From Daphnia pulex (Eukaryota; Arthropoda; Branchiopoda; Diplostraca; Daphniidae): a DNA stretch of 64,000 nucleotides. Made by a program: the position numbers and the translations under genes. Below are positions 3,001-52,269 of the stretch, one piece after another (position 1 is the stretch's first letter; each line of letters opens with the position of its first letter). The notes below the pieces were generated by a model. The model saw only the letters and a list, made by a program, of their open reading frames with translations, was not told the origin of the DNA and searched no databases. The stretch covers positions 1,612,001-1,676,000 of the forward strand of contig NC_060027.1 of assembly GCF_021134715.1 (NCBI RefSeq), written 5' to 3'.

Positions 3001-4260
3001 GTGAAAAATTCTTACCAAGTAATGGCCAGGAGGACAGACGGATCGGCATTCGCCGTTGTGGATGACGTGTTTGCAAACGTCGCACTGGTTGCTCTGACCG
3101 CCACTGCACCCACCGGCGCACTCCTCGTGACAGCAGCGCATTTCGGACGGACGCCCAACTTCTGTTGTCGTCACGCTGCACGCTCCACTGACGCATTGGT
3201 CGCACACTATCAACGATTGTTAAAAATTGAATGGAATATTACAGATATTTGTTAGGCGATTAATTGACCTTTCTGGCACTCGTCGTTGTTCCAACAAAGT
3301 TTCTGGCCATCTCCACCGGCTGGGCAACGATCCTGGCATTTTGGGCATTCACTGATCTTTTTATTATCCTATAAACAGAAAGAATGGAATAACAATTTTT
3401 TATCAGATTACAACAAACTGACGTACTAACCTGAATTGAATGATAAAGGCGACCGGAATAACTAATTCGATCCCAATCGATCGATTCCACGTAGCAGAGA
3501 TTTGGATTTTTCTCAATGAGGACGGACCCGCGCTGCAGTTCCGCCAACGATTTCAGTCCAATTTCCTGTTGGGTGAATCCGAGAATCGACCAAATGTTAA
3601 AACAAAGAGATCGACACGACATATTAACAAGAAACCCCAAAGAAAAAGAACGTACCTGTAGTTGCATGAGTTCATAAACGACGAATGAGAAATCGAAAAG
3701 GAGATGCTGGCCGCGGATGACGGCCAAATTGGGAAACAGTTGGCCGATGGAGCGTAGGCCTAAGACGCGGTAAAAGAGCAAATAGCCCGTGATTTCCCGC
3801 AAGGCCGGGAAGCTGCGGTTATTCAAGTCGCTGGCAAAGTCCAAATTTTCCATCAAAACAATGAGAAGGTTGCCTTCAACCACTCGGCAGCCCTCCAATT
3901 GCGTAAATTGTTGGGGGCCATTTCTAACTTCTATACTGCGACAAACTGGTTGAATCAAGAAATAAATCAACAAAATTAAATTCCGGTGGAAAGTATTGTG
4001 CCCAGCATAACATTGAATGGATAAAAACGTGTCGTCAAATACTTACTCTCTGTCTCTCGAAGAGGCTGATAGGCGTCGATGGACGAACTCAGAGGAGCGA
4101 GTATAAATGGGTCTCTAGTTCCTAAGTTCCCGGCTCTAGCTCTAGTTCTTAATCTTAAGGGTAATTGATGCATTGATGCTTCAATCACTTTAAAAAGGAC
4201 CAAGAAAATGATCAAATTGGCAAAGGAATTGTGAAAAGCAATTCTTAATTCCGCAGACAT
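1..4260 (-). CDS. InR: Insulin-receptor-like tyrosine kinase, N-terminal part (ectodomain and TM)
   Basis: A receptor for insulin-like peptides at the cell surface. The start at 4260 gives a signal peptide with a hydrophobic core (LIIFLVLF). Then follow receptor L domain 1 (exons 3945-3656 and about 3569-3432), a furin-like Cys-rich region (3371-3269, 3210-3015, about 2740-2437), L domain 2 (2369-2079) and three FnIII domains (about 2013-170). A DDIVGGIV...PEDPNGL block and an LLPGNYCVQVRAVSLAG block match the last FnIII domain of vertebrate INSR closely. The final exon (119-1) encodes a transmembrane helix, GLISGIFILVSFVLILLGF. The tyrosine kinase domain must lie left of the window. The alpha/beta insert (about 1055-800) keeps the FKNYLHDK alpha-CT-like motif but shows no furin site. 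Intron splice sites are inferred; family identity is very secure, the orthology class among crustacean InR paralogs is not. Confidence 0.93.
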
Positions 4261-29340: not shown

Positions 29341-32300
29341 TTATTCCATTTCAATAATAGCGAATTCAATAACGCGAACCTAGAATACAATAAAATTAAT
29401 TCATTACGTGCTTCGCATAGAGAGGACAATTTGAACTGCAACAATACAAACAATGCTATACCTGGCCATCTTTAGAGTTAACGGCTAACTTATAAGCAGC
29501 ATCGTCCGATGAATCGGTAGCCAGCCACGATAAACCAGTGGAATTTTTGTCACATTTCCCTGTGAATAGGGGTATCCAAGTCTGCAAGAAGAACAAAACA
29601 GACAAGATATGTAATTAACGAAGGTCGAAGATTAGACATTATTTGCACTAACAGGATAGCACTAGGGTCTATATCGATTAAGTAATTGAATAAGTGCAAG
29701 GTTTTTACCCTAGTGGACCAAATGATGAGTTCACTTTTCGAATCCACTGATGCCAAAAACCGTTCGTTGGGTGAAAATAAAATTGAAAAGACCGGTTCTG
29801 AATGTTTCATTAACATCCTATGCTTTCGGCCCTTTGCCAACGGATTCCAGATTACAATCGATCCATTCTCTAAGCCACTAAACAAATAAATGGACCATGG
29901 AATATTCGGTTAATCATACTGGGAAAATTATGGTAAAAAAATTGGGTTAAGTCTCAAATATGATTTCTTTACTCAATTTTCCTTAACTTCTTAACACCTA
30001 ATTTTTAGCTCAATCAAACGCGATCTAACTTACTTACCAGGCTACAGTGAAATTTTCTGCAGAATTCCTAGCTGCCTCAATTCCATCGTCCGTGGTACCG
30101 TTCGAACGCCAAGCTAAACAGCAACAGTACGAAATGACGTTCAGCTCATACATAGCCTCTTTGATGGTTGTGTTGAATGACCAAATCTGTGAATATGAAA
30201 CGAGTTTATCAGTAAATCACGAGAGCGATTGGCAACTGTACTACTTTGATCCATTTGTCATCGGAACAAGAAGCAAAATATAGCGTGGTGTCATTCCATA
30301 TTAAATCAGTAACAGTATTCTAAAATCAATCAAAACCAAAAGAATTAAATAATAAAATGAAATCGTAAATAGTAAGAACTCACGCTGTGCTTGACTAGAC
30401 AAGTTTTCGTTTGGTTTCCACCTATTTCAGATACTTGAATTGTTCCATCGACTAATCCCTGGGCGATGAGATTCTCAGATATCCACTTCACGCATTCGAC
30501 ATTTTTCCTGTGTTCGACTGTGGAGACATGATTTGTGTTTGAGCCAACGGCTGTCGAATTCCACAGCAAAACTACTTTCTGGCCCTGGATTGGAAATGGA
30601 GATTAATTAATTCAGCGAACAATTACCGACAAGACCTTTTTACATTTTCACGAGAAGCAAATATGTTTGATCGATATGGATTCCATTCTAGTTGATCGAC
30701 CTGCTTCAAATGTTTCTTCATTTGAAAGAGGACTTTTCCACTCGGGTAGCTCCAGACGATCACAACACCGTCACTGTAGGCAGCGGCCAACTGATTACCT
30801 ACATCCTTTTCGTTATTGAAGGTTTAAATAATCAACGCCACTCAGTTTTTAATATAAACTGAAAACAAGGTTTTACTTACATTCCATTCAAGAACTTTAA
30901 TCTCCATCATACTGTGCCCTCGAAGTTTAACGGCATTTTCTCTCCAAGTCGAAAAGGGTGCAGCCCCACTAGTCCCCGTGAAAAATGTCACTTGATTCGA
31001 CAGGAAGACGCAAGCGAGAAGCGGTTTTAATGGATGGAAACGGCTTATGAAATTCTTACTTCCCGGTACATATCTCAAAGTTTCTTTAAATTGTCCTGTA
31101 GTCGATCAAAATCATCCGTCTGAAACGTTTTTAGGGAAAAACCATATATATCTTACGTTCAACAGGTGCTGATGTAGGTGAAGTCTCGGGCAATGGCAAA
31201 TCAGCTCTGAAAAAAAAAAAAAAAACTTGTTTCTGTTTGTATACAATGATTGTATTTCAAAAATTACACTAAGTTTAAATGTAACAAATAAAAGGGTGAT
31301 ACTTTTACCTATCATCTTCTAGATCCGAATCCGATAGTTCAACTACGGGAGGATCAAGTTTATTCCGAAGGGATTGGTACTCACGCTGAACTTCTTCCAG
31401 TTGCGCCATAATCTGTGATTTCTCTTTTTTAGTCGAGTTGCATTCATCTGACAAGGTTTGATTTTCCAGAGTCAATTTAGATTTTTGACTGGCCATGGCC
31501 ATTAGTTGAAGCAAAAGATCTTGTTTTTCTTTCCCGAATCGTTTGCGGGTGTCCGCTAACAAACTTTTGAATCCTTTGGCCTGTTTTTCTTTAGATGCGG
31601 TCAGATTTTTAATTCGAATCTCCAGATCTGATAGTTTACGTTGGAGCGAATCGGCAAACTTGTTGGCTTCATTTCTGGCCAGAGTTAGCGCCTGAACCGA
31701 AACCGCCTTCAACGAAGTACGTTGTTTCTCGACTTCAAGTTCAAGTTTCAGATTGGCAACGGTGGCTTCCATTTGGATTTGGGTGTTGTCACTAGAACCG
31801 GGCATAATCGCCAAAGTGGGAACTTGTACTGACGGATCGTTCACTTTTGGACTTACACTAAATTGTTTGGCAATGACGGTACGTTCCTGCAGTTGATTCT
31901 GAAGACTTTGCTTCTCTTCCTCGTGCTTTTTGTGGTTCAATTCGACTTCGCGTTCCAAAACAAATATCTTCCACTGCAAGGATTCTGATCGCTCATTCGC
32001 TTCTTTTTTTTCTTTCGTTAATTCTTGCAAAGAGACAACCAGCTCCGATATCTTTTTTTTCTCGGCATCCAGTTCCTGCTGAAGATTGGTGATTGTACCT
32101 TCCAGCTTGCGTCGATCGTTATCACTGGAGCTCTTCAAATCAGACAAGGCTTTCAAAGACATCCTTTCAGTTTGTAGAGACGTGACGTCAATTGTTTGGA
32201 GTTCTCCGATTGTCCGTTGCAAAGTTGTTTCACGTTCCAGAAGCTGCTTCTCAAGATTGATTTTCTCCTTCTTAAGTGTTGCCTCATTCAAGTCTTTTTC

Positions 32301-33698
32301 ATTTTTCAAAGCCAATAGTTTTTGACGGAAGGATTCCGCAAGCTCTTCAGTGTCCTGCAGAGTAACAGTGATTTCTATTGTTTTCTTTCTTTCGACGTCG
32401 AGATCATGTTTTAGATTAGCAGCGACTGCTTCCAGCTCACGTTTGCTACTCTCACTGGAACGTTGCAAATCGGAAATGGTCTGAACCATGACAAGTTGAG
32501 CTTCCGTTGATTTTTCCTTCTCAGCTTTGAGTAAACGTTCCAAAGCGACAATTTCAGGTACTGCAAAAAAAAAGAAATTATTACTGCGATTCAATAACCA
32601 TCAAGAATTCAGACTAACATTTGACATTTTTGAATTGTGTAGCGGCAATGCGCAGAAACTGGGTCCCGTTTTGAGGAGGTTCCCCGATCATATCCTTGAT
32701 CAATTCATAAGCAAAGTGGCCTTTATGTAATCCTGAAATATATCACAAAAGAGTTATATAAGATTATAAGAGAATCTACAAACATATTTATCTTACTATA
32801 AAGGTTAACTGGGTTATTTTCTGCCATGTTGTTTAAAATAGATTCCATGTCGCCAAATGGATGCAGTCCACGTTTTAGGAAATAAAAAAAAAGACAGCCA
32901 GCAGCAAATACGTCTCCGTAAACCGTAGCAGTCGATTTTATCAGCAAACGGCCGTCTTGATCTAAAATAGTTGACCAAGACCGCGGCAACATCCAATATT
33001 TCGGTTGACATAAACTTTTATTCGCGCCAATGGATTCACCGTCTAAAAGACAATAATAAACAGAAGAGTTTAATACAAATTTTGTTTTTCTGCAGAAGTA
33101 ATAGAGCTTACAAAATCCGAAATCCGAGACCTTCATCATCAGTGGCTGAGAATCAAAAATCAAAATTGATTGAGGGTTTAGATTACCATGCGAAATCCCA
33201 TTTTCGTGTAAATAATTTAGTCCGTTGGATATTTGACAAAGGGCGTTAGCTTCCAATGGCATAGGTCCCGTGTATTCCCCATTGCAATACTGTTCCAGAG
33301 TGGCGTCGAACCGTTCAAGAGCGAAATATCTGTTAAAACAAACCGTATTGTAGAAATAACTGGTTTAAATTGAGAATATAACAAAGGAGTTACCTCCAGC
33401 GATCCATGTCCTCCTCATATCCGATAATATTCAAAACATTTTCGTGGTTTAGAGAGTTTGCTAGATGTCGATCAATGATGTTTCTCCAGTTCTCTCGGCA
33501 GTCAGTTTTCTGAATTCTTCTCACCACAACTTCTTTCTCGTGTTCATTGTCTCGCCAATATCCGAGAAACAAGAAGCCACACCAACTTTGGCTCAAGAGT
33601 AATGGATTTTGGCAACGCAAATTCTTTCCGGTAAAGAGCATTTCCTTCTCAATTTTCACCTTTTTCAGTTGTAGCCCCGAATATTCTTCACTAGCCAT
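29341..33698 (-). CDS. Gene B: IRE1-like pseudokinase, coiled coil and WD40 repeats
   Basis: Start at 33698, right after an acceptor (GCAG|ATGG). The pseudokinase (33698 to about 32640) has VVVRRIQKTD, FALERFDATLEQYC, ISHGNLNPQSIL in place of HRDLKPxNIL, an intact SDFGF, and VYGDVFAAGCLFFYFLKRGLHPFGD as in IRE1. The Lys-to-Arg and HRD-to-HGN changes predict no catalysis, and the C-lobe ends at GTQFLRIAATQF without an RNase domain. One large exon (about 32567-31311) encodes a coiled coil of about 420 residues ending PPVVELSDSDLEDD, which resembles a SUMO-interacting motif. A small exon (ADLPLPETSPTSAPVE, about 31208-31160) leads to WD40 repeats (31097-29341): IKVLEWN, VACGLENGSIVIWNPLA, ILFSPNERFLASVDSKSELI. 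About 1,100 residues. The WD40 part is close to TBL1. Confidence 0.78.
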
Positions 33699-34550: not shown

Positions 34551-36991
34551 TTACCTATCATCTTCTAGATCCGAATCTGACAGTTCAACCACAGGAGGAT
34601 CAAGTTTATTCCGAAGGAATTGGTACTCACGCTCAACTTCTTCCAGGTGCGCCATTATCTGTAATTTCTCCTTTTTAGTCGAGTTGTAATCGTCTGTTAG
34701 TTCCGAAACTAACGATGACAGGATTTGAATTTCCAGAGTCATTTTGGATTTTTCACTGGCCATGACCATTTGTTGTCGCAAAAGATCTTGTTTTTCTTTC
34801 TCAAATCGTTTGCGGGTGTCCGCTAACAAATTTTTGGATTCTTTAGACTGGGCTGTGGGGTTTCCTTTAGATGTGGCAAAATTTTTAACTTGAATCTCCA
34901 TGTCCGATAGTTTACGTTGGAGCGAATCCGCAAGCTTGTTGGCTTCATTTCTGGCCAGGGTTAGCGCTTGAACCGAAACCTCCTTCAACGAAGTCCGTTG
35001 TTTCTCGACTTTCAGTTCAAGTCTCAGATTAGCAACGATGGCTTCCATTTGGATATGGGTGTTGTCACTAGAACCGGCCATAACCGCCAAAGTAGGAACT
35101 TGTCTTGACGGATTGTTTTTTACTTTTGCTATCGCAGTATGTGTTTCGGCAATGACGGAACGATCCTGCAGTCGCTTCAAAAGACTACGCTTCTCTTTCT
35201 CGTGTTTTTTGCGGATCAATCCGACTTTCTTTTCCATAACTGATAGCTGCCGCTGTAAGGATTCTGAACGCTCATTTGCATCGGTTTTCTCTTTCGTTAA
35301 TTCTTGCAAAGAGACAACCAGCTCCGATGTCTGTTTTTTCTCGGCATCCAGTTCCTGCTGAAGATTGGTGATTGTACCTTCCAGCTTGCGTCGATCGTTA
35401 TCACTGGAGCTCTTCAAATCAGACAAGGCTTTAAAAGACATCCTTTCGGTTTGTAGAGACGTGACGTCAATTGTTTGGAGTTCTTCGATGGTCCGTTTCA
35501 AATTTGAATCACGTTCCAGGAGCTGCTTCTCAAGATTGATCTTCTCGTTCTTAAGTGTTGCCTCATTCAAGTCTTTTTCATTTTTCAAAGCCAATAGTTT
35601 TTGACGGAAGGATTCCGCAAGCTCTTCAGTGTCCTGCAGAGTAACAGAGATTTCCATTGTTTTCTTTCTTTCGACGTCGAGATCATGTTTTAGATTAGCA
35701 GCAACTGCTTCCAGCTCGCGTTTGCTACTCTCACTGGAACGGTGCAAATCGGAAATGGTCTGAACCATGGCAAGTTGAGCTTCCGTTGATTTTTCCTTCT
35801 CAGCTTTGAGTTCATTACACAAACGTTCCAAAGCGACAATTTCTGGTACTGCAAAAAATAATTAATTATTGCGATACAACAACCATCAAGAATTCACTTA
35901 CATTTGACATTTTTGAATTGTGTAGTGGCAATACGCAGAAACTGGGTCCCATTTTGAGGAAATTCTCCGATCATATCCTTGATTAATTTATAGGCAAAGT
36001 TGCCTTCGTATAATCCTAAAATATATCGAAAGAGTTAAATAAGAATGTTTCCTTTATACAGACACAAGAGATCTACAAATATCCATCATACTATGAAGGT
36101 TAACTGGATTATTTTCTGCGATGTTGTTTAGAATCGATTCCGTGTCGCCAAATGGATGCAGTCCACGTTTTAGGAAATAAAAAAATAAGCAGCCAGCAGC
36201 GAATACGTCTCCGTAAACCGTAGCAGTCGATTTGATCAGTAAGCGGCCGTCTTGATCTAAAATAGTCGACCAAGACCGCGGCAACATCCAATATTTCGGA
36301 TGACACAGACTTGTATTCGAACCAATGGATTCACCGTCTAAAAGACAATAATAAACAGAAGAGTTTAATACAAATTTTGTTTTTCTGCAGAAGTAATAGA
36401 GCTTACAAAATCCGAAATCCGAGACCTTCATCATCAATGGCTGAGAACCAAAAATCAAAATTGCTTGAGGGTTTAGATTACCATGTGAAATCCCATTATC
36501 GTGTAAATAATTTAGTCCGTTGGATATTTGAAAAAGGGCATTGGCTTTCAATGGCACAGGTCCCGTGTATTTCCCATTACAATACTGTTCCAGAGTGGCG
36601 TCGAACCGTTCAAGAGCAAAATATCTGTTAAAACAAACCGTATTGGAAATAACTGGTTTAAATTGAGAATATAATAAAGGAGTTACCTCCAGCGATCCAT
36701 GTCCTCCTCATATCCGATAATATTCAAAACATTTTCGTGGTTTAGAGAATTTGCTAGATGTCGATCAATGATGTTTTTCCAGTTCTCTCGGCAGTCAGTT
36801 TTCTGAATTCTTCTCACCACAACTTCTCTCTCGTGTTCATTGTCTCGCCAATATCCGAGAAACAAGAAGCCACACCAACTTTGGCTCAGGAGTAATGGAT
36901 TTTGGCAACGCACATTTTTTCCGGTAAAGAGCATTTCCTTCTCAATTTTCACCTTTTTCAGTTGTGGTCCCAAATATTCTTCACTGGCCAT
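34551..36991 (-). CDS. Gene C: IRE1-like pseudokinase and coiled coil, WD40 part lost
   Basis: A recent duplicate of gene B with near-identical kinase exons (36991 to about 35930). Start at 36991 after GCAG|ATGG. It shares VVVRRIQKTD, ISHGNLNPQAIL, SDFGF and VYGDVFAAGCLF, and thus the same predicted loss of catalysis. The coiled coil exon (about 35850-34551) is close to that of B, with a short insertion (SSLVSELTDD) and different residues around 35160-35270. Translation ends LSDSDLEDDR and stops at a TAA made from the former donor site (AGG-TAA), so the protein ends exactly where B continues to its WD40 part. About 750 residues. The SUMO-interacting-like VVELSDSDLEDD becomes the C-terminus. 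Confidence 0.8.
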
Positions 36992-38641
36992 CTGCATCAT
37001 AATGAATAAGCATGAATGAAATAATTCTGCTGCTTCAATTTTATGTTTACTGAAAAATGTCATCATACTTAATCAATTGATCAATTTTCACGTAAATTAA
37101 TTGGGTATGATGGTCACCAAATGATGTTATTGTTTCAGTAGGAAAAGAATAATATTATCAAGACAATAAAAGGAAATGGTTCTAAAGCAGAATTTTAACC
37201 TTGAGTCTGTGGTCTTATCTTCCATAAACAAGTAAACTAACACTTAATGTGTGAATTAATTTCAAGGTAAGGAATCAGAAACGTGAGGTCCTGATTAATG
37301 ATACCGCAGTCTGTGATTTTTTAAAAATATATGGCTAACTACTATATTTGTTGGATGGAGAAAAAAAAACTATTTGTTTGGCAGTGGAAAATAGCCATTG
37401 CATTTGTCAACAAGATAAGACTTGAGAAATCTGAATTTGTAAAAAACTTATATTACCTTAAAATCTTCAAATAGAACTTTATTTAGTACATAATTTCGTG
37501 GGTTTAGCTGGTTTATCTGCTGAGTGCTGATCTCTGTACTGCTGCAGTTCTAGGCGTTAACTGAAATTTAGGTCGTCTGCTGTGCTGATTCGATTAAAAG
37601 CGGTGGCGATTGGCACTTAACATTTGAATTGTGTTTTGTATGTTTTGTTTTTATTCCAAATTACAAAAGAAAAGAGCCCTGCATCCAAAGCGCGAAATAA
37701 ATTAATCTAACTCCAACGTGGGTAGCAATCAGTACCTTTAATTTCGTGTGATCAACACTAACGCAACACCAATAGTCCAATAGCGAATACAAACGATCAA
37801 GACATGCGGACTGAACCCTAAAGCTCCTCGATCCTAACAAGTCATGTCTATGGGATTGTACCTCCTTACCCAATACTAATTGAGGTATTTATTCCATATG
37901 CATAGCAGAAAAAAATAAAGATTAAATTTTCTAGAAAGGCTCAGAATGCTGGCCGATGTTGTAATTCCGGTGAATTTTTTTTTCACGTCATACTGAAACT
38001 GCTGAAACCAATGTGGTTTTATTTTTATTTGTAAGTGATGTAACAAACATCTAGCCATACAAAATAAACTTCCACAAAGATGATTCAAGGATGGGCAGTT
38101 TTCTACAAGAGTCGACATTCTATGGCCTTTGTCAAACCAAAATGCGTCGTTCCAGGAAGTAATTTAATTTATTCCATCGACTCAGAACCCCTCTTCCCAA
38201 TTCATTGATTAAAATCTTGGAACGGATTTCCAGACGTATTGGTGATGCCGGTGTGAAGACAAAAAAACGAATCCTGGACAATTCTTCCGCAGCCAGAAGA
38301 ATTGGCAGATTTGTTTCTTAGATACGATTTAAAGCAATAAATATTTCCCATACCCATTAAGCTCTGATTAAAGTGAATTCCCACATAAGTTTCGAAATCC
38401 AAAAAAAGGTTTTATTTCGCTTAATCCATGTTACTGCTTCAAGCACATAAAAAGTAAAAACAGAAAACGTAGGAAAGGCTAGGTTAAATGGAAAGGGAGA
38501 GCGATTAATCAAACAATTTAAATAGCTCTTCACTTAAATGAGCACATTTACATGCTGTAGCGGCCTAACTCGGTCTACTGCCCCTAGACAAAAACAACTT
38601 TTCTCTTCATCATTCTCAATCTTCATGCTTCAGTAACAATC
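36992..38641. other. Spacer between genes C and D
   Basis: Holds the gene C upstream region and the 3' region of gene D. Minus-strand frames at 38118-37876 and 38402-38202 have some protein-like character (VENCPSLNHLCGSLF), but I found neither splice linkage nor family match and do not call them. Confidence 0.4.
37457..37640 (-). promoter_or_regulatory. Putative 5' UTR exon and promoter region of gene C
   Basis: Shares the donor AAGATTTTAAG|GTAATATAAG (exon end 37457) and the block GGTGGCGATTGGCACTTAAC (about 37601-37620) with gene B. The duplication therefore included the promoter. Confidence 0.5.
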
Positions 38642-41639
38642 TTATAGACGGATCAAGAAAGTTTCACTTGCAACAACACCATTTTCGACAATCAACTCCG
38701 GAGCTTCGTTTAAAGCTCCTAAGATTAAGGAACTCAAATCCTCGCCAATTCCGGCCATTGTCACCACGGGAGAATCTTCAGACGCCTAAACGAAATCAAT
38801 TTATTTATCAACAAACAATGAACTTTCTAAAATACAAGAAGTTGTGGATACCTTAAGTTTCTCCTTCTCCAGCAAATTTGAACCTTCACTATCGATGGAA
38901 TCATTCACGTCACCTAAACAAATAAAAGTTCCATGGGACAATCGACAGGTTAAAATAACGATTATAGATTGAACTGTTAAAATGTAAAAAGCACTTTGAC
39001 GGTTTACCTGATTCCCCTTTGTCGTCGACAACATCACGACAAATGCCATTGCTGACACTAATGTCCTGGGGTAATTGATGGCCATTGGAGTGTCCCTCAC
39101 GCTTATTGGGAACCTCATTGGCTTGAACGACGTTGCTGTTTTCGTGAGATAGCCACCCGATATTGCGTAGATCAATGACACCTCGAATAAGGGAACGGAT
39201 ACGGTCGGAAATTTCGGCCTTGTTACCGATCACCATCAAATTGTTCAAGTAAGTAGTCATCATCTCCATGTTTTTCTAAATTACCAAAACAAAAAATTAC
39301 ACGTTATCCTGAGTTAAATTAGGGGGAAAAGGACCAACCGGGTTCGGGTTTGGTTTCTTGTTGGGAACCTCTAAATCTTTGCCGATGGAAATCAGAAGAA
39401 AGCAGAGGCACTCGAGCGCTTCTTCATCTCTATCTTGGCTCAACAACCAGACGATACACTCATGTACAAATCTCAGAGGAACCACTTTGATTTTATACAG
39501 TTCTCCCATAAACCTGAAAAAATTGCCCAATAAGTTTCGAAATATTACAATCACACAATCGTTGTACCTGATGTTTGCAAAAGCATATTTCCTTCGATTA
39601 TTCTGCAATTCTATTAGTTCCATTTCCATTTCAGCCTTCTTTGCCTCCTAGAAAATTAAGATTGGTACAGAATTTTATGATCAAAAAGTTGAGCTTGTCG
39701 TTACCGTTTCTGCGCAATCAATTTCTTTCTTTTTATTCTCAACGTCGTACTGCCCGGTGCTTGTCTTATCAAACTCACTCAGGCAACGATCCATCAGCAT
39801 TGATCGGAAGTTTGGCGTTTCAGTTGAATTCGAATCGCACTCTGCCTTCTTCAACGACAAAGATTGGCACGTTTTGGCGTACATCAACGAGAGATTGGGT
39901 TCTTCAAGAGCCTATTTAAAGTAAAATAATTAAATGATAGGACGACATCAGTTCAAATAAACCACCAAACCTTTTCATAAATCAATTGAGAGACTCGCAA
40001 CAAACGTTCTTCAGTGTTGAGATTCAAAGCTTTGAATTTTGGCAATGTTCTCTCAAACGTTAAAGGAGTCAGTTCATTCAAAATCTTAACGACGTGCTTG
40101 AGGTACTCCTGCAATCCAACAACAGAAATGCAAAATCTTTAATGAGATAAAGAGTCATTAATTTCCCATTTACCTCTATACCGACTCCATCGGGAATATA
40201 CATGTCTTTCTTTTCCCTCAACTTAAAACGGTTTTCGGGTTTGCGTAAGTTTTCTTCAGATCGTTTACGCACAATCCTATTCGACTTCAAAGGTTCTTTA
40301 TTTGAAAATTTCTAAAAATATTAAACCAAGAATAAACGTGTGACACTTGGAAACTTTGAAAAAGTAGGGAAAAGAATAGTACCTTTGGCTGCGAAATTTT
40401 AGGAAAAATCAAGCGTTCTGGTGAATTATTGGAAACGTCCTCCTTTTCAAAATAAATGGTGCAAAAATTTACTCAGTAAAAAACGATATAAGCTAACTTT
40501 AGAAGAAGTAAAACAAAACCAAATTAAAAATACCTTTACCGGAGACCCACGGGTGATTTCTTCGTTGATCAATTTTTCAGGTAATATTTGGGATGCCGGG
40601 TTGTTTCGCAATTCCAAAAGAAAAACTCGGTCGTATATCTTTTTCCCCTCTGGACTCCATTGCTCTGTAATAAATCAATTTTTTCAGCACATAAAAAAAA
40701 AAAAAAAAAAAAAAATCACATTTTCAGACATACCTTGCGAGCTTAGATCCTGTACAACCTCAGTTGTTTGTCCTGTTGTTACCTATAATCAACAATGAGC
40801 GGTAATGTTACAATGTAGTTGATCTTCCAATATACAACATACAAAATTTTTATTTTCCTCCAGTGAATAAAGTTGTTTAGATTTTATTACCTCTGAGCTG
40901 AAGAGATATTGGCCGGTTTTCATGCTAGCCAAATGGAGATCGACATACCTACAATGCAATCAGTGTAAAATGAAAAGATTTGTTTAGTATTAAAAATTGT
41001 ATACTTTTTCTTCGAAGCCATTTCTTCACTTAGCTCCCCAAACACAGAGCACACATCCAACAATGTCCTGGCAGAGGAGAAGGCCCCAAGAACAATCCTG
41101 CAGATAAATAATATGCTCACACTGCTATGTAATTTCAAAGAAAAAGATCGTTTTAATATTCACTTTTTATATTGGTTGAATGGGAATAAATTAAACGCTG
41201 TCTCCGCCCAGTTTATGAACTTAAGAACCACATTCTCCAAATGAATTCGGGCCTCAAGCAAATCAGAGACAGTCTGGTGTTGAAACGAAATAAATAGTAC
41301 AGAAAATTACAAATTTTCACCAATTCACCTTAAAATCTTGTTACCTTCAGGGATTTCAGCTCTTCTTTTTTCAACCCAAGCCACTCCATGAGATCAAGCA
41401 AATAATCTAGGTCTTCTTTTCCTTTTTGAAGGATAAAACCTTGTTGAAGAGCGTACAATCGACCTAAAGAGGGAAAATAAGATGGATATTAACGCCGGAA
41501 GAAATACCATGCTTTCAAAATGCATACACCAGTAGCTAACAGCACAGTCTATCGATTCATAGTCGGAAGCAATATCCAGATACTGTTCCATTTTTTTCAA
41601 ATTCGCTGGCAACGAGCCCAAAGAAAACGGAATCGCCAT
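38642..41639 (-). CDS. Gene D: VTA1 N-domain fused to eIF4G-like MIF4G, short form
   Basis: About 16 exons, roughly 660 residues. Residues 1 to about 150 match the VTA1/LIP5 N-terminal domain that binds ESCRT-III proteins: SLPANLKKMEQYLDIASDYE, AVSYWCRLYALQQG, ARIHLENVVLKFINWAE, and TLLDVCSVFGELSEE. The frame then continues through two short exons into IYDRVFLLELRNNPAS (about 40640), the YxxxxLL eIF4E-binding motif of eIF4G. The MIF4G domain follows (about 40110-39010): LNELTPLTFERTL, LNTEERLLRVSQLIYEKALE, RFMGELYKIKVV, EEALECLCFLLISIGKDLE, IDLRNIGW. The end is acidic and stops at 38642. MA3 and W2 are absent. The junctions CAA-G|AG and TGG-T|GT keep one frame throughout. Confidence 0.82.
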
Positions 41640-44383
41640 AATTGTGTTAAAATGTTTGAAATCAAGTATTTTTAGTTAAATCTAGGTAGAAAATGAGAGT
41701 GAGCTATGAACACCATTTGATGCCACGCGTTTGAGCGGTTTGAACAAAATGAAGCTGAAGAAGTGAAGAATTTTGTCACGAGCATAGGCAAGTGCCTAAT
41801 GCCCTTAAGCGATAACAAGGGAGCACTCTGGCGGACAAGTGGTTGGTCTGGCCTGCAAATAGTTCTGAATTTTTTCACCAGAAATGAAATCGGATGATTT
41901 TACGCGGAAATTATTTTAAAAATTAACTTTCATGAAAATCAAAATTGTAACAAGGTTGGAATAAAATGATAAAAATATGTACTACTGATTCCATTTTTTA
42001 AAATCCTTTTTAAAATTTATTATTTATACGTCATTCATACAATGCAGATGCAGGTCAATACTTTATTTTCAGCACGAGTTCGGTAGCAAATAAATGGTAA
42101 TCAATTTTTAAATATGTCAATCTGCGTTAGTTTGTCACTATAAATCGTTTAAAATTAAAGATAGAAAAGTACTTCCTAGAAGCAAATGCGGTGTCCTTAA
42201 GGTGTCCAGCATTCCAGCTGTATAAGAATGCGCTCATTAAAAATAAAAAGATCACGTCATAGGGCAAACATTGTTAATTTGATGAACATGATTACTTTAC
42301 GAAAATCAATTCCGATACTAAAAGGAAAGCGAAAGCTATGATGAGGCTAATAGATTTGCTCGTCTTTCGTCATGGCCGGAAGTGGACGATCGCTCGTTGT
42401 GACACAATGAAATGTACGGATCGATAAAGTGGTCGGATGGTTGGTGAACGTCATGTCCGAATTCTTTCTTTTTAGCTGACTGGATCACCGGGACAAATGG
42501 ACAAAAGTCCTTTTGATGTGATCTCAGACTATTCAGACATATGCTTGGGCTGTTCTATAATTGGAGAGATTTAATTACGTTTTGAGCAGCAGAAAGGCAA
42601 ATGAGAGAACTAGGATAACTGGGTGAGATATTTAGTTTAGATGATAACTGACGAACTGTAATATGAATAAATCATTCAGAGTCGATTGACTATTGAAATT
42701 TCACGCCACAGACATGAAGGCAATCACTACAATGACCAGTTTACAAACAATGTGAAAGATAAAAGAAGTTAAAGAGACTCACCTGACGGTTACAAAATTT
42801 GTTATTCTTGAAAAAAATTTGAGACTTTTTGACGATTTTGACACAGGGTGCCCAATAAACTGTCCAATCGTGACTTTCTAAGTCATGAAAATAAAACTTA
42901 AGTCAAAGTATGACTAGAACGCCCCCTACCCGTGGTGGAAGAGATAATAGCGATCACTTGCCTGTTTGGTTGTTTCCCGTAATACATTTACCCTCACCTC
43001 CATTTACATTATATGAATAAATGTTGATGCTAAAGATTTACATTTACGAATTGTTACCTTAGGGAGAAATTATATCTGCTGCAATGTATTCCTTTCTCAA
43101 ATAAGTTTTGTCATGAACAAACATGTAGGAATCTACTGAACGGTTATTTGACCAATAATATTGAAGCGATTCACCTTGTCCTGGACTTTCCCCCCATTGG
43201 CAAAGAGGATTCGGTACTTTGGTTCGTCTTTGAGGGTAGGTGATCCATCGGGTAAATTCAAAATCACGCGACTGTAGCAGATGGGTTAATGTGAAAATTG
43301 GGTGTGGGACGATGCCAAATGGCAACCAATAAGTGACAGCCAGGTCGGCATATTTGCGTATTTCCTATTGGACGAATCAGATCAATTTATTTGATCTGAC
43401 GTACCGAATAATAAAATAAACACAGATGATGGACTGTGAGCAGAGTCAACTTCGTTCGACAAGTGTTCGGCAAATGTGCAGCACCTATAACCTAATAGAA
43501 AGAATAATGCTGTTTACATTGCAGCTATTTTGAAATACAACCCCTTCACCCGGAATTCCGTATTCACAGTTGGCAATGTTTGAGCACATTAATTGATTAG
43601 CGCGCACTTTCAGTAAGCGCTAAGGGGCGCACGAAGTACTTACATCCGGACCCAACGTCAACAAACGAAGTTAAAAAAATTACTGTCTGTTTTCAAGCCA
43701 TTTGCCTTCACCTGTCACTCCGTGGTGTTGTGCATGATTTTAATTCGTGTTCTGGACAATCCCTCTAGAAAATCTTAAAAATTTGAAAATGTCGAAAGCC
43801 AATTGGTGGCCTATTCGATCCGCAAAGATCGATCATTATTGTCGGTGAGCTGTTGATGATCATCCCATTCTACACGTATAAACGACGTGCTAAGATCCAG
43901 TTAGCCAAGATCAGTTTGATATCAAACAGCAAGAGGAATTTATAGCTTTAAAACCAGGGCACTGCACCAAATCGATTATTTTTCCTATTTTGATGTTCCA
44001 AAGTGTGTGAAATAATATTTTTAAACCTACTAAAAATAGGGAGAACCAAATTTGAAACATCCATTAACAAACAAAAAAGAATATCACGATTTCCCTGGAC
44101 CTTGTAAGGCCTTAATTTACGCACGTAGAAGATAATACACCAAAAAAAAACTCTAACGTACTTCAATTCGATTTGAGCAAATCGTATAATACCAACGGTG
44201 AAACGAAATAAATTTAATTGCGATCTTAGGCAAGTATGAACAACGGAATTTTACTAATGTGCTACTGGAAAGGGATAATTTGCGAAGGGCCGTGAACAAA
44301 TAATTTGTTTGGTTCTTTAACGTTTAAGAAAAATGGGTCAGAAAAACGCGAAGAATGTTATAATTGAGGATGCGCGCAAAGCT
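41640..44383. other. Spacer between genes D and E
   Basis: 2.7 kb holding the gene D promoter and the gene E 3' region. A minus-strand frame at 43325-43059 (88 residues, including CQWGESPGQGESLQYYW) is protein-like, but without splice sites or family match. No MA3 or W2 remnant of gene D was recognised by eye. Confidence 0.4.
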
Positions 44384-47300
44384 TTACTCACATGTTGCTG
44401 CAAACAACATATCCATGGAGCGCCATAATTCCCAAGACGAAGGGGAGACGACGCCGCTATGGAGAAGAATCAGAATAATGCCTGTGATGAAATGGAAGTC
44501 AAAATAATGTTGCGGTTAGTTTAATAGAAAAAACTGAAAGCAAAAGGCAACCTTACAATTGAAATTTTGTTGTTTGTTGGAACATTTTTGAATTGTAAAA
44601 AGGACTTCCAGTTCGTAGTCAGTGCTGTTGCAAACATAGTGTCTTAGCAAGTTGGTCCAGCGTTCGAAAGTAATGTAGTTCATTTCCGAGTCATGTTCTG
44701 AATTAAATAAAGCGGAAATAAACCACACAACTCTAATTTGAAAAGAGAGAAAAGGGTAAAAGTTATCTTGCCTTCCATGGAACATTTAAAGAGTGCGTTG
44801 GTCAAGGTACGGATAAAATCGCAATTCACCTCAAAATTGTGTTTCTGTTAAAAATTTTGAATGATAACAATGATGATAAATGAGATAATTAATTTAAAAA
44901 AATGAAATCAAGACCTGGATCCATGTGTAGACTTCATTATCAGTCAATTGATTAGCATCTCTCAAGAACTTTTCCAGGCTACACTGGAAGTCGATGTTAA
45001 CTTGGCAGGTAGGAACTGGGTTACTGTTAGGCATGCGTGCAAAGCCACTATCCTTTGGTAAAGAATCAAATTTGGAAAGAAATTCCAGTTCCTAATTTCA
45101 GCAACAAATTTAAGATTAATAAAAACAGGATTGATGAAACACATGCATTATAAGCTACCTTGTGATGATTGCGGAATGCGATCAGATCAACATCATGTGG
45201 CAGAACACTGATAAGGGATGCGTTCGAAAAGATAAACAATCTTTCAGCTTCGGCAACACCCTATACAACAATAGATGAATTTATAGTTCTCTTAATTACA
45301 CTTATCACAAAATATTAAGAATAACAATTATCAACGGAAGAGCCGTACTGGCTAAAATTTTACCTGGACAAGTACTAATTCCTTCAGGACCGCAGCTACA
45401 AAATCGGCAGCCAAGGGCGAATTCAGTACCGACGACAACTGTGGAAGAAATTTCAAATTGATCACGCCTTCTTCAAACAGAGGCTCGACCAGTTCAACCG
45501 CTGATTCCCATAGTAACTTGGGGAAAATCACCATCCAATCTTCAGCCCCTTGGAGGAGTTCTGTAAATCTGAAAGAAGTCAATCTGGCTTTGAAAAGTCT
45601 TTCAACCACAAAAAAAAAATTCATTGGCAGAATTCAACTCACCCTTCTTTAAGGTCCGATGTGTTAAAAAGGTTTCTCTTAACCATTTCCTTGAACAAAG
45701 TGCTAGTCGCCCTACGTTCTTCTCTTCCAAGTTCATTCACGTGAAGCAAGCACTGGTTAATAAATCTGGCTACGGTTGATGGATGCAACCATTCCTTCAC
45801 GCCAAGAACCGCATCCTGAAGAGAATTATTATAACACACATAAAAGAAGAATGCATTTACTGTACGTTTTACCTCGATGTTTTTATCATTGGTGAAAAAT
45901 GTACATAGGAGGACGAGTGATTTTAGTGCAATTTCATCGTTCGTTAGAGTAAATTTGCCCAATGGTACATCTAAATATTCAAAGCAATCAAAGTTTTAGG
46001 CTTTTACATCGCAATTTTTCTAATGTTACCTTGAGAGATTTCTCGTGTTAACTGTGGCGATTCAAGACTTTCAAGTACGGGATCAGCAGCGGAGTTTTCA
46101 TGGGATTGCTGACTAGATGAACAAACAGGGATATCTATTCGAAAACAAATAAATTTGAAAAAATGTTCAGAAGTGAAATTCTATCTGCTTTGAGACTGAA
46201 ATAACATAAACATCATAGAAAATTTACACGCGGCATCATATCGCAGCACTATTTATCGACATTAAAACGCTGTTAAATACCAGATATCTGTGAGGGATGC
46301 GAATCTTGTTCGAGATGATCATCCTGGAGCGGGAAGAAAGCACTTTCTGAGGCTGCAAGCGTCACCGGTTCGTCTTTTTCAACATAGTCGCAATCTTCCA
46401 AGGATTCATCCACATTTTGTTGCTGTCTAGGTGAGTCACAAATATTCTGTTCCTGAATCGGGTAGCATTTGAACTGGGAATCTTGAGTTGCACCAGGATA
46501 GCTCTCGGTCGTTGGTTGGAACTCCCCGTTAGACGTTTCTCGCCTCAAAGAATCCAAGCATTTTAGATGTTGTTTCTTAAAGATCCAGTCGCGATTGCGT
46601 AAATTAATAACGTGTTCAATTCGGGAACGAAGACGGTCTGATATTTCGATTTTGGTAACAAGGGATTCCAAAACTTTGAATGCGATATTCAAAGTTGCCA
46701 GGATCTGCATTTAAAAAAATTTAAAAATGAGGAGAGAAGTATTAGAACAAGCATATTGGTCTACCGAGATAGCTGGGAACTCTTTCATTTCCACCCGATA
46801 CTCTACTGCCTTGCCGACCGTAGCCAATAATATGCAAAGGCAGTCCAGCGACTCTTCGTCTTCGATTTCAGCTTTAGTCAATAGCCGACAAATACAATAA
46901 TTCAAAAAGTCGCTTGAAGCAACGCGGTGTTTAAATAATTCACCGATAAACCTGGCAATAACAGTGTTATAGATTTTCAGAAAACTGCGCGCGGTTCAAC
47001 ATTTACGCTACCTTGTGATTCTTGTTGACTTATTCCACACTTGCTTCTTCGGAAAAAAAAAATAGTATTACGGATATGTTTTTATCAAATAGTACATTGA
47101 AATTCTTTTTACCGTTTCGGCGTTCTCAATTTCTTTCTTTTTTTCGACAACATCGACCGGGGAGTGTCTTTCCCGATCAAAATCTTTCTGGCACTGATCC
47201 AACAGCAGCGCACGGAAATTTGTTGTTTTAGCTGGGTTTAAAGCAGATGCAACTTTTCTATGCGACAAGGCAGCACAAATTTTTGCTAATAAAGGCAAGT

Positions 47301-48837
47301 AAACGGCATTTGCAACCAGAACCTAAAATTAAAATAGACAAATCAATTGATTGGAAGAAATTTAGCGTAGGATAATCGTCCAACAATACATTTATTTACA
47401 TACCTTTTTACAAATTAGCTGGGACATTTCTATTAACCTTTCTTCAGTATCAATAGTTAACGCTTTAACTTGTTCTTTTCTTTGTTGAATGTTAGCCCAC
47501 GTTAATCCTTTCAAAATATCTTTGAAGGATATCGGATAGGCCTGAAGTTCAATTAATAAAGGAGTTAATTTGAGATGAAACATTGATTAATAAACAAACC
47601 GAAATTATCTGTTCATTTTTATTTCGATGATCATCTGGACAGTGGTCGCACAACGCTTCTGGCAACTGTTGCGGTTTTTTAAGTGATGCAGGACAATATC
47701 GAAGTTCCAATAGGAAGTGTCGATCATATAGCTTGACTCCTTCGGGATTTACTTTGCCTGCTCGATCTACCGAAAGTAATAGTTAAAGCCACTTAGATTA
47801 AGCGAGACACACACATAGTTATTCAAATTATTAGCTTACTATTATCTTTCAGTGTGTTCGTTAGCGACAGACTTTCAGAAGGCGATGAAATTGTGACTTC
47901 CGCGATGACACAAGACGAATCGACACTGTTTTGTTGGTTAATTTCAGCTGTTACCTGCACAATTTTATAACTATTAAGTACTGATAATATTCAAGCATAT
48001 AATAAATCTTCTCATTTCTAGGTTTAATGCACCATAATTGCATTGACAGTACTAAAGTACAATGGAAACTTATTAACAATTTATACATACTTTTGATAAT
48101 CTGGTTTTCAAGACAGCCCCATTCAACTTGGCCAAACTGCAACAAAGAAACAATTAGATTTTTGTGTATTTTTCAAATTCTAATTGGATTATTATCATTA
48201 ATACTTCTTCTTTTCAGCTAACTCTTCATTTGTCCCCCAGAATGAAGAACAAACATCCAGTAGAGTTTCAGTAGACTCAAGTGTTTCAATTATAAGCCTG
48301 CAAGTCCACACAAAAAATGAAATGGAATAAGTTTTTCATCATACAAAATCAATCACCTACCTGACAGAATGTTTGGTAGCAAAAAACTTGAACCCCATAT
48401 CTGCCCAGCTAAAATGCTGTAGAGCCACGCTTTGAACATGATCTCGAGCAGAGACATGACCAATGATTGCCTGAAATTAGAAGCACGACAGATATTATTA
48501 AGATAACTCCAATGGAATGTTTTGAATACCTTCGAAGGATTGAATTCTTGCTTATGTTTTGAAAGCCTTTCATCTAGCTGATGCAAAAATCTCAGGTCTT
48601 CATATCCTTTGTACAAGGTGTAACCTTTCAGGAGGGCATAGTATTGACCTTGATTAGAATACAACACTTGTGTAGGAAAGAGTGTTATTGAAGCTTAAGT
48701 TTAAAAAATGCATTACACCAATAGGTCACAGTCAAATCAACGGCCTCGTACTCTTTAGCTATGTCCAAATACTTTTGGATGTCTTTCAGATTCGTGGGCA
48801 ATGATGGCAGTGATTCCAAAGAGTTTAGAGTTGCCAT
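44384..48837 (-). CDS. Gene E: VTA1 N-domain fused to full eIF4G core (eIF4E motif, MIF4G, MA3, W2)
   Basis: About 20 exons, near 980 residues. The VTA1-like N-domain (48837-48203) has SLPTNLKDIQKYLDIAKEYE, VTYWCQYYALLKG and TLLDVCSSFWGTNEELAEKK. Then VKLYDRHFLLELRYCPASLK (about 47740) is the eIF4E-binding motif in the eIF4G context, including the following PASxKP...LP. MIF4G lies at about 47560-46560 (LTIDTEERLIEMSQLICKK, NFRALLLDQCQKDFDRE, EESLDCLCILLATVGKA, VINLRNRDWI). A Ser/Gln/acidic linker leads to MA3 (about 45960-45160; EGFTELLQGAEDWMVIFPKL, ELVEPLFEEGVI). A W2-like end follows (44846-44384; MNYITFERWTNLLRHYVC, SGVVSPSSWELWRSM). The final TGTGAGTAA could be a stop or a donor, so the last residues are uncertain. 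Confidence 0.82.
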
Positions 48838-49447
48838 CGTGGTTTAAAAGTAATTTAAACCAAAAACTCGCATCAAAACACAATAAATTAAGCGTGGGTA
48901 ACATATAAAACAAAAAACATTAAACAACCAGCACGTGACCACAACTACGTGAAAAACAGCACATGCATGCCCAAGGATTCAATGCAGACTGCCTCACTGT
49001 GCTGTTGCTGTAGGCTGCCGGCTGCCCTAAGGCTGAAGGGGTAAACTGTGGGATGCAGTTGATTTCTGAGAAGGGCGGGGCCTAAAAATAATGTGGAAGT
49101 GGATATGAAGAACTTGAAGCCTTATAGATTAATAGTGTATTGGAAGTTGGAAGTTGGAACCCACACAGACATAACAATAAAAGAGTGGCTTTATATACCA
49201 CGGAAAAATAATACCTTGTACCTGAATACAAAAATTAAATTGAAAAAATTAAATTTGAAAATATTTTAGATGGAACAGTCAGTAGGGCCTGTAATAAGGT
49301 CATAGATAAAGAAGACGAAGAATGGTCTTTGTCTATGATAAGGTGTTGAATCACTTGAATAATGTCGAGGTTGACATTTCGGGAACGAAGTGTACCTAGT
49401 CGTTGGGGGAAGAGGACACACATTCAGGGGCCATTACACAAACATTC
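48838..49447. other. Spacer between gene E and CUB-like gene
   Basis: 610 bases with the promoter of gene E and the 3' UTR of the CUB-like gene. Contains a short tandem duplication (TTGGAAG, near 49140). No coding exon recognised. Confidence 0.45.
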
Positions 49448-51856
49448 TTACACGAACGTCCAAGTGCAATTGAACCAAATAGTGCCCGCAAAACCAGACA
49501 GATCTAAATCAAGGAACAATTGATTTCCCTTTGATGTGTAAATCTGGTTGACGACAGGTTTATTAGTGATATAGGAGATGTAGGTGTCGTATTCATACAA
49601 CTAATTAAGAAAAGCAAATTTCCATATTAATAAAGAACACAAGAGTGCTATGAATAGACATTAAAATTCACTTACTAAAATGTTGGTAAATTGATTGATG
49701 AACGGACACGACATTTGAACGCGCACATTAGCAGGTGCGGTAATTATAAAGCGACAGACACCACCAAAGATAGTGGTATTTGTGTTTTCTAGCGGGGAGA
49801 TTGTTCCAGAGGCTACCGTTGTTTCTCCATCTCGGCAAACTATAAAAAAATAGCAAAAGTAATGTCAGCAACATTTGCTACAGATGTTGAAACGTTTCTT
49901 TTATAACTAAAAAATTACCTTTAAAGTCCTTGGTTGGTGGAATTGTTATCGTCGTCCAACCACACAGAAACTTATCACCTTTTACGTAAGAAGCAAAAAC
50001 GTCTAATCGATTGTTTATCGATGTGGATAACAACAAGGATGGCAATCGAGAAGTTGCAATTTGGGCAGTTTCAGATAACTAAAGAAAAATATGAGAATAT
50101 TGCTATAACCTGTAATTTTCACCATGTTTAATGCATATGCATACTATATTACTAAACACTAAAAACGTGCCATAAATTACACCTACTCTCAGAATGCTGC
50201 CAGAACTGATGACGACATTCGTAGAGTTATAGTTACAAGTCATCTGAATGCGCTGACCAAGAGGAACAAAAATGGAGAATAAACAAGTTTTTAATTCGTT
50301 CGTATTGACTAATGCTGGGCTAATTGTCCCGTTTGTGGTCGTTGATTTTACGTTTAAGCAGTCTGAAAATCGAAAAACCAATCAATACATAATTTGGATT
50401 CTATAAATAGTGATGGTTGAAATTACTGTTAAAATCTCTCGTCGCCGTGGTGGGTGTTGCTGTCATCCAATTGCAATTAATTGCAGAATCTGTATCGGTA
50501 GCTTGATAAAACATCAGCAGATCTACTTGATTGCTATTTGCTGTTGTCTTGTTGAATTTAGGTTGAAAAAGCCAGTTTTGTCTAAAATATGAAGTCTGTG
50601 ATAACGAATAAAACATTTAATGAATAAAAAGCGGCAAATCTGAAAAAAAACTGCAACTAAATCTTTGCAATAATCAATTAATCTAATAATTAAACTTACT
50701 GTAGATAGAGCAAAATTTGTAGAAGTAATGAAAGAGCAAGACGTCTGAACTTGACGATTGGGTGATGAATTGATGAAGAAGGGACATGCTTTCCTTATCC
50801 CCGCGTTGGCATTTCCATTTCCTACTGGTTCACGCAGAGTTTGAATGGATCCATTGGCTGCAGTCGTCTCACCATCTCGACACCCTGAAAACAAAAATTT
50901 TGGCGATTATTTTGAACTGTTTGATCGCGAAACGATAAAAAAATTATTATCACATTTAAAATCTGTCGTTGTCGTGGGAATTGTCGTCCAATTACAATTA
51001 AATGTGTCTGCTGCGTTGACGACTCGATAAGTGACAGTCATTGCATTGCTGTAAGAAGTGTAAACCCTGTTTGGTACGACATTGTATAAAGACTGAAGGT
51101 CGAGGGTTCCGTCGAACTATAAAAAAAATAGTCACATGGACGTTCAAATCGACATAATATCTCCATACGTTTCTATTTAAATTTCTTACGGTCAATGAGC
51201 TTGAAACTATTTCAATTCCTCCTGCGTTGTCTAAGACAGTTGTTATTGGAGTGAGTTTTGCGACCGAGCAAGACATCTGAACTTGTTGATTCGAAGGTAC
51301 GACAATGGAAAAGCTGCACGTTCTCGGCGATCCCGTTGCGACTGGTTTTAGTCCGTCTAATGGCTGAATGGATCCACTGGCCGCTGCTGAATTTGTGTCC
51401 TGACAAACTTTAAAGGATTTAATAGTTGTGGCGGCTGTTGTGGTAATAGGATTTCTGGTTGTCGGTCTAGACGTCGGTCTAGTCGTCGGTCTAGTTGTCG
51501 GTCGTCGGGTTGTCGTTCTGGTTTTCGGTGGGGTTGTCGGTCTGGTTGTACCGTTTGTGTTTAATTTAAATAATTAATAATACAATTAAAAATCTATAAT
51601 TAATATAATTATTAAATAATTAATTTAATACAATTTAATACGAGTTGTGGTTCTTAGTGTTGATTTGACAGTTGTCAGTTTGGGCTTTGTAGACGTTACT
51701 TGCCCCTTGGCCGTTGTTTTAGTCTGAGCTTCCTATAATCAACGTAAACAAGAGATTTGCATATAAATAAAAAACAAGGTGAATTGAAAAAAAAAAACTT
51801 ACCACGGCAATAATTGCCAAGCAGAAGACGAGAACAAAAGTTAGGAGCGACTTCAT
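49448..51856 (-). CDS. Secreted protein with four CUB-like repeats and Thr-rich linker
   Basis: Start at 51856 gives a signal peptide, MKSLLTFVLVFCLAIIAV. A Thr/Lys-rich exon (about 51733-51640) and a Thr/Arg/Pro-rich segment follow, encoded by 12-base units (TTRPTTRPTSRPTTR), probably O-glycosylated. Four related domains of about 105 residues come next, each starting with a Cys and a (A/N)-(S/N)-G-x-I-x-P motif and ending with a C-x-W-T: CQDTNSAAASGSIQPL (51410), CRDGETTAANGSIQTL (50885), CLNVKSTTTNGTISPA (50365) and CRDGETTVASGTISPL (49840). The pattern fits the CUB-like families expanded in crustaceans. It ends WFNCTWTFV at 49448. Role unknown; extracellular matrix, mucus or immune recognition are possible. 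Confidence 0.8.
51459..51520 (-). repeat. 12-base tandem repeat coding for RPTT/S units
   Basis: Units of the type GTCGGTCTAGTC (plus strand) repeat about five times with point changes and encode a Thr-Arg-Pro linker. Such repeats change length readily, so copy number may vary between individuals. Confidence 0.75.
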
Positions 51857-52269
51857 TTTCCAACCTTATCGAAATGATGGCAAGAAATGCTCTGAAAAAG
51901 TTCTAGCAACCAGCGAGGTATTTATCTGCATCCATACCTTGCACCAGTAAATGGAAGCGAATGGACACGTATTACAAAACTGCATTTGCACGACAATATC
52001 CATTGTACAAGTCGCACAGTTTTCGAAGGATCTGTTGGGTGCAGCTGTATAGTTTCGAACCAGACGCGCACATTGGATTGACGCACGAAGTCTGGATACA
52101 AGGCTGCGCTAATTAACGGTAGAATGCATTACTGGTGCAGCTCCCAATGCACATGCAAAGAAAATTAGAAAATGAAACACGTCAGTCCTTGCGCAGGAAC
52201 TTACCGCGACAAGTGTTATTCCGGATGCACGTTGCCCCTTTTCGTTTATCGGGGTTAGAATATGTGCGA
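51857..52269. other. Upstream region of the CUB-like gene
   Basis: Promoter-proximal DNA of the CUB-like gene. No coding exon recognised. Confidence 0.4.

Follow-up and report, generated by a model that had tools for sequence, protein, structure and literature searches.

The window described here is a stretch of 64,000 nucleotides of the water flea Daphnia pulex (NC_060027.1, C11:1612001-1676000), belonging to a genome of 133,188,837 bases in 13 contigs. It contains two tandem genes on the minus strand, D and E, in which the N-terminal domain of VTA1/LIP5 is followed by an eIF4E-binding motif and a MIF4G domain of eIF4G type (Table 1). Hand-built models of both genes are open in frame throughout, with all 15 introns of D bounded by GT-AG, as are 19 of the 20 introns of E, the remaining one being GC-AG. 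The rebuilt models begin and end exactly at the positions given in a preliminary description of this DNA, and its statement that one frame runs from the VTA1 part through introns into the motif and MIF4G was borne out in both. The two genes are separated by 2744 bases and share 31% identity over 551 aligned positions; no repeats of 40 or more bases were found in 36000-52000.

Pfam placed the Vta1 N-terminal domain (PF04652, cut-off 26.8 bits) at the start of D (3.6e-28, 98.8 bits) and of E (1.3e-17, 64.6 bits), as the preliminary description had held, and searches of PDB matched D to human VTA1/LIP5 chains at 8e-17 and residues 1-202 of E to human LIP5 at 1.4e-11. The motif downstream is an exact YxxxxL(L) in both genes; the Pfam eIF4E-binding profile scored 22.5 bits in D and 12.4 bits in E, below its cut-off of 27, and the D motif aligned with KKRYDREFLL of human eIF4G1, this segment alone scoring nothing (-0.7 bits). 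MIF4G exceeded its cut-off of 30.8 bits in D (1.4e-30, 107 bits) and in E (1.8e-20, 74 bits), and D matched human eIF4G1 at 5e-49 in the PDB search. Among the remaining eIF4G profiles that had been suggested for checking, MA3 was found in E only (6e-6, 26.7 bits against a cut-off of 23.2) and W2 in neither gene; D, with neither MA3 nor W2 in Pfam, ends after MIF4G. Within E, conservation is highest in the MA3 region; exons 14-18 (249 codons) show 70% identity to canonical eIF4G and a ratio of nonsynonymous to synonymous divergence (dN/dS) of 0.21. The pattern is complementary, Vta1 and MIF4G being better in D and MA3 in E. The models are least certain at linker exons 5-6 and at the splice donor of exon 13 in D.

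In the motif exon an in-frame stop lies 15 (D) or 21 (E) bases ahead of the first full codon with no ATG between, and therefore an ATG-started product containing the motif requires splicing from upstream exons. This bears on the possibility that two adjacent genes were wrongly joined in the models and give separate VTA1-like and eIF4G-like transcripts. Such an error would be compatible with models made from DNA alone, and Met154 of D, located in exon 5, is a possible start of a shorter product; it is nevertheless very improbable, given the stop ahead of the motif exon, the lack of any Met between residues 105 and 296 of the E model with the motif at 215, and the recurrence of Vta1 followed by MIF4G at a locus on C3. 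A chance joining of neighbors, which the preliminary description had disputed from the shared order in two paralogs, was rejected as very unlikely on the grounds of the C3 paralog and of the motif exon that needs upstream splicing, both of which strengthen that argument.

The ratios were computed by a Nei-Gojobori type method in our own script, and many pairs are near saturation. Between D and E, the Vta1 part (147 codons) gave dN 0.51, dS 1.60 and dN/dS 0.32, and MIF4G (216 codons) gave dN 0.51, dS 1.39 and dN/dS 0.37, while the proportion of nonsynonymous differences (pN) reached that of synonymous ones (pS) in none of 1000 bootstraps for either part. The differences also depended on codon position (p=0.0018 for Vta1, p=0.033 for MIF4G). 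Over 19 pairs (6 of MIF4G, 3 of MA3 and 10 chosen of 28 of Vta1) dN/dS ranged from 0.16 to 0.56, and among the full 28 Vta1 pairs 26 gave finite ratios, all below 1, the other 2 being saturated. The youngest pair, the C4:490k and C4:495k loci of Table 1, gave no codon-position signal (p=0.61), and its pN equaled or exceeded pS in 0.3% of bootstraps. These values point to purifying selection on both halves of D and E. They speak against fusions that are by-products of an unstable duplication on C4, some of them transcribed and none with a cellular role. The fragment of D exons 1-2 at C11:5762133-5761839 and the mosaics at C4:490k and C10 would be expected from such an origin. Against it, D and E still have complete frames (637 and 977 codons) and consensus dinucleotides at their splice sites despite a dS of ~1.4-1.6, and dN/dS is 0.3-0.4 in both halves; we consider this origin improbable.

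Viruses use both the eIF4G and the ESCRT pathways, and hybrids of the two might act as decoys, that is, as baits or interfering copies driven by conflict and evolving by copy turnover. The turnover and domain loss in the family, the C4 segment copies of 93-98% identity and the long branches of D, E and C3 would fit such a role, to which we assign little probability. There was no sign of positive selection, all finite pairwise ratios being below 1 (averages over whole domains would miss selection at few sites), and the link to viruses is drawn by analogy. Searching a viral collection with residues 1-522 of D returned six stretches that matched a pattern and no relative.

Six-frame searches of the same genome, with exons mapped by our own spliced aligner, gave nine clear Vta1 loci, eight of them non-canonical. 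In a trial that set each of D and E against the locus of the other, the aligner recovered many, not all, exon ends; models of loci other than D and E are computational and less checked. Three of the eight non-canonical loci (D, E and C3) join Vta1 to MIF4G, four of the eight carry Vta1 with the exact YxxxxL(L) motif, and at three loci on C4 and C10 Vta1 occurs with other eIF4G pieces, the MA3 profile at C10:12.88M scoring 22.3 bits, just below its cut-off. Three weak Vta1-like places were seen at C11:4.26-4.30M (E-value 0.107), and tblastn with D and E found no match at a MIF4G locus on C6. Vta1_C had a single match in the genome, at C4:499296-499409 beside the canonical Vta1, and none in D or E.

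A canonical-looking eIF4G, with matched exons at C4:482363-486906 and a W2 match reaching 486989, lies on the same strand as the canonical VTA1 (from 498292) at a distance of ~11 kb, with segment copies between the two. The tail of eIF4G (485857-486996) is copied at 491228-492374 with 97.8% identity, the sequence 478547-480166, which lies upstream of the matched exons of eIF4G, is copied at 493144-494612 with 93-96% identity, and C4:490k and C4:495k are 85% alike. The whole of C4:478001-505000 was observed to be a duplication-rich cluster, in which copies of the eIF4G region with 93-98% identity stand between eIF4G and VTA1. Exon 7 of D has 131 nt and a phase-1 start, as in the canonical eIF4G exon C4:482363-482493, and the junction is alike in D and E, with a phase-1 intron directly ahead of the motif exon. 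Furthermore, D exons 8-12 (60+138, 138, 207 and 80 nt) match eIF4G exons (198, 138, 207 and 80 nt) with one extra intron; in E the 198-nt exon is lost and the 80-nt exon has shrunk. Canonical VTA1, D and E agree in the lengths of Vta1 exon 2 (119 nt) and exon 4 (93 nt). Since intron positions of both parents were kept, D and E are no retrocopies, and that origin was rejected. Their structure looks like exon joining at the DNA level, by which the 5' exons of a VTA1 copy came before the 3' exons of a neighboring eIF4G copy; the C4 cluster is the likely birthplace, and we infer that the event took place there. The junction at C3 differs, with Vta1 exon 4 spliced to an exon starting YAK, like VTA1 exon 5, and on into MIF4G, and a second fusion event for C3 is possible.

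In the trees, a branch with support of 98/98 separated the non-canonical Vta1 domains as a set from both canonical VTA1 and human LIP5. The Vta1 tree grouped D, E and C3 (55/85), as did the MIF4G trees of 12 rows (86/89) and 8 rows (74/82), unstarred in each case and on long branches, and a grouping of D and E alone was not the best in either tree. A single origin of the three fusions is thus favored, not proved. Intronless MIF4G copies elsewhere in the genome formed a group separate from D and E. The 8-row tree put human eIF4G1 beside the intronless copies (81/81), contrary to the 12-row tree, and the deep placing in the MIF4G trees is unsure.

A second eIF4G-derived family was also observed. 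Its long open reading frames (ORFs) of 1001-1144 aa are unbroken at five loci (one on C2, one on C8 and three on C7; e.g. L028:2646-5906), all of which carry a YDRAFLM motif, with MIF4G and a KH domain in the two loci scanned with Pfam; another C7 copy (L032) and a copy at C3:4.13M (L026) are broken into shorter ORFs.

According to PMC9477494, the first MIT domain of LIP5 prefers tails of late ESCRT-III proteins and the second binds CHMP5, and PMC5141497 reports binding of the Did2 MIM1 helix by MIT1 of yeast Vta1. Eleven LIP5 residues were mapped, namely 10 listed CHMP1B interface residues and Met43 from the description of the pocket in PMC6862464. Identity to human at these positions was 9 of 11 in canonical VTA1, 7 in D, C3, C4:490k and C10:12.88M, 6 in C4:495k, 5 in C10:722k and 4 in E; in the other N-domain columns it was 53 of 123 in canonical VTA1 and 31-37 of 123 in the rest (D 37, E 31). 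By one-sided Fisher tests, uncorrected, identity in this MIT1 pocket for the MIM1 helix of CHMP1B exceeded that in the remaining columns in canonical VTA1 (0.015), D (0.030), C3 (0.022), C4:490k (0.014) and C10:12.88M (0.014). Snf7-family ESCRT-III matches are present in the same genome. The label VTA1 chosen in the preliminary description fits the N-terminal tandem-MIT part and does not extend to Vta1_C: the VSL domain is the Vps4 site according to PMC6862464, and direct control of Vps4 by D and E is unlikely, because VSL/Vta1_C is absent from their predicted products.

The eIF4G side was compared over the 156 columns from the motif to MIF4G in which human and Daphnia eIF4G have the same residue. 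Of these, 100 are retained in D (2 gapped), 81 in E (18 gapped) and 82 in C3 (34 gapped). The position of the eIF4G N-terminus, which in animals carries the PABP-binding site, is occupied by Vta1 in D and E. The main rival to an adaptor is suggested here: the core under selection may be Vta1 plus the eIF4E motif, a localized 4E-BP-like repressor that soaks up eIF4E in competition with true eIF4G, with MIF4G and MA3 optional or decaying. C4:490k and C4:495k, with motif and no MIF4G match, the gaps of E and its undetected W2 point that way; the columns and constrained MIF4G of D and the conserved MA3 region of E point the other way, and the C4:490k and C4:495k models are themselves predicted from DNA alone. 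Such a sponge is possible, with a probability well short of even.

We favor, with moderate confidence, the reading that D and E are chimeras joined at the DNA level, kept by purifying selection, and encoding what would be an eIF4E/eIF4G-like adaptor tethered to ESCRT-III. In the proposed mechanism, a VTA1 copy supplied the 5' exons, coding for tandem MIT domains that would bind the tails of ESCRT-III proteins, and an eIF4G copy next to it supplied the 3' exons; the joining probably took place in the C4 cluster, and relatives are found today on C11, C3 and C10. If expressed as modeled, the protein would combine a MIT module of the ESCRT-III-binding type, lacking the Vps4-docking VSL, with the eIF4E motif and MIF4G. 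Its predicted binding and location would recruit eIF4E, together with capped mRNA and perhaps also eIF4A, to membranes coated with ESCRT-III, or alternatively withhold eIF4E there; judging from the sequence, its function may be to tether translation to ESCRT membranes, as the preliminary description had suggested. A more tentative proposal is that D, E and their kin use eIF4E to link capped mRNA with ESCRT-III polymers, so that it is translated at endosomes, at the midbody or at the nuclear envelope, or else loaded into ESCRT-made vesicles, e.g. exosomes. If so, cap-dependent initiation would be directly and physically coupled to membrane scission.

Several observations weigh against the adaptor reading. 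The models of D and E rest on genomic DNA, and an unseen 5' exon other than Vta1 may be used. In the trees, weak support for the joint group accompanies two alternatives that the approximately unbiased test (p-AU) did not reject, E with canonical VTA1 and LIP5 (0.103) and C3 with eIF4G (0.098). The eIF4E motif is missing from C3; at C10:12.88M it is weakened, and there is no match to MIF4G. The codon-position signal of D-E MIF4G is modest, dS approaches saturation, and aligning codons by protein somewhat reduces dN. E and C10:722k have lost much of the MIM1 pocket, with Fisher values of 0.31 and 0.17 and a borderline 0.060 for C4:495k, and conservation in the pocket may reflect folding alone.

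If D and E bind both ESCRT-III and eIF4E, the water flea has a built-in bridge between membrane remodeling and translation initiation, and the modular losses of MIF4G, MA3 and motif would offer naturally occurring variants with which to dissect it. The likely parents, the mosaics and the products all survive in a single genome, so that one can study directly how a chimeric gene family arises when exons of neighboring genes are joined.

Table 1. Genes D and E (positions in the window) and other Vta1 loci of the genome
Feature	Position	Strand	Content
Gene D	41639-38642	minus	16 exons, 637 aa; Vta1 N-domain, eIF4E-binding motif, MIF4G
D exons 1-8	41639-41528, 41463-41345, 41273-41164, 41097-41005, 40948-40891, 40782-40734, 40664-40534, 40442-40383	minus	
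D exons 9-16	40311-40174, 40108-39971, 39911-39705, 39647-39568, 39513-39369, 39275-39008, 38913-38852, 38785-38642	minus	
D exons 1-4	41005..41639	minus	Vta1 N-terminal domain, residues 17-156 (final residues in exon 5)
D exon 7	40534..40664	minus	eIF4E-binding motif YDRVFLL, residue 191
D exons 10-14	39008..40108	minus	MIF4G domain, residues 293-518
Gene E	48837-44384	minus	21 exons, 977 aa; Vta1 N-domain, eIF4E-binding motif, MIF4G, MA3
E exons 1-4	48205..48837	minus	Vta1 N-terminal domain, residues 19-159 (final residues in exon 5)
E exon 7	47600..47766	minus	eIF4E-binding motif YDRHFLL, residue 215
E exons 8-12	46281..47541	minus	MIF4G domain, residues 264-483
E exons 15-16	45364..45815	minus	MA3 domain, residues 659-749
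Canonical VTA1	C4:498292-499413		Sole Vta1 locus with Vta1_C
C3	C3:494652		Vta1 and MIF4G, both over cut-off; no eIF4E motif
C4:490k	C4:490396		Vta1, motif YNRLFLL; no MIF4G match
C4:495k	C4:495244		Vta1, motif YDHLFLL; no MIF4G match
C10:12.88M	C10:12877354		Vta1, weakened motif YGRLFIL, MA3 region, W2; no MIF4G match
C10:722k	C10:722422		Vta1; nothing else recognized
C11 fragment	C11:5762133-5761839		Copy of D exons 1-2; 85% and 95% protein identity

Elsewhere on the minus strand of the window, tandem loci at 31305-33364 and 34551-36707 each consist of a protein-kinase-like ORF (Pkinase 5e-11 and 1.2e-10) followed by a long coiled-coil-like ORF, and an ORF at 3260-4042 has a Receptor L domain (3.4e-22), which we take to be of the insulin/EGF receptor type.

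The preliminary description knew of no protein with this domain combination, and in the literature searched, covered in part under open licenses through titles and the starts of abstracts, no description of a fusion of Vta1 with eIF4G or MIF4G was found. A term search of the main text of PMC12102780, on Daphnia gene families, gave no eIF4, VTA1 or MIF4G; gene models of D and E may already be present in RefSeq under other names. Among known systems, VTA1/LIP5 is matched in the tandem-MIT N-domain, for which human LIP5 is the solved relative, and in exon lengths and phases, which agree with those of the genome's canonical gene, but D and E have eIF4G exons instead of Vta1_C/VSL, and the MIM1 pocket of E is poor. 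The eIF4G1/3 type is resembled in the YDRxFLL motif, in MIF4G, in the MA3 of E and in an exon structure that follows the eIF4G on C4, whereas the N-terminus is replaced by Vta1, D ends after MIF4G and W2 is undetected in E. The paralogue of eIF4G known as eIF4G2/DAP5/NAT1 has a different N-terminus, and D and E are likewise eIF4G-derived with an N-terminus of another kind; unlike it, they keep the eIF4E motif, and their MIF4G goes with the genome's eIF4G, on a branch (97/96) apart from human DAP5, the NAT1-like C4:5535255 and human eIF4G1. Finally, 4E-BP and other eIF4E-binding proteins share the YxxxxL(phi) motif, and C4:490k and C4:495k may encode little beyond Vta1 and that motif, but in D and E the motif exon is derived from eIF4G and joined to a MIT module.

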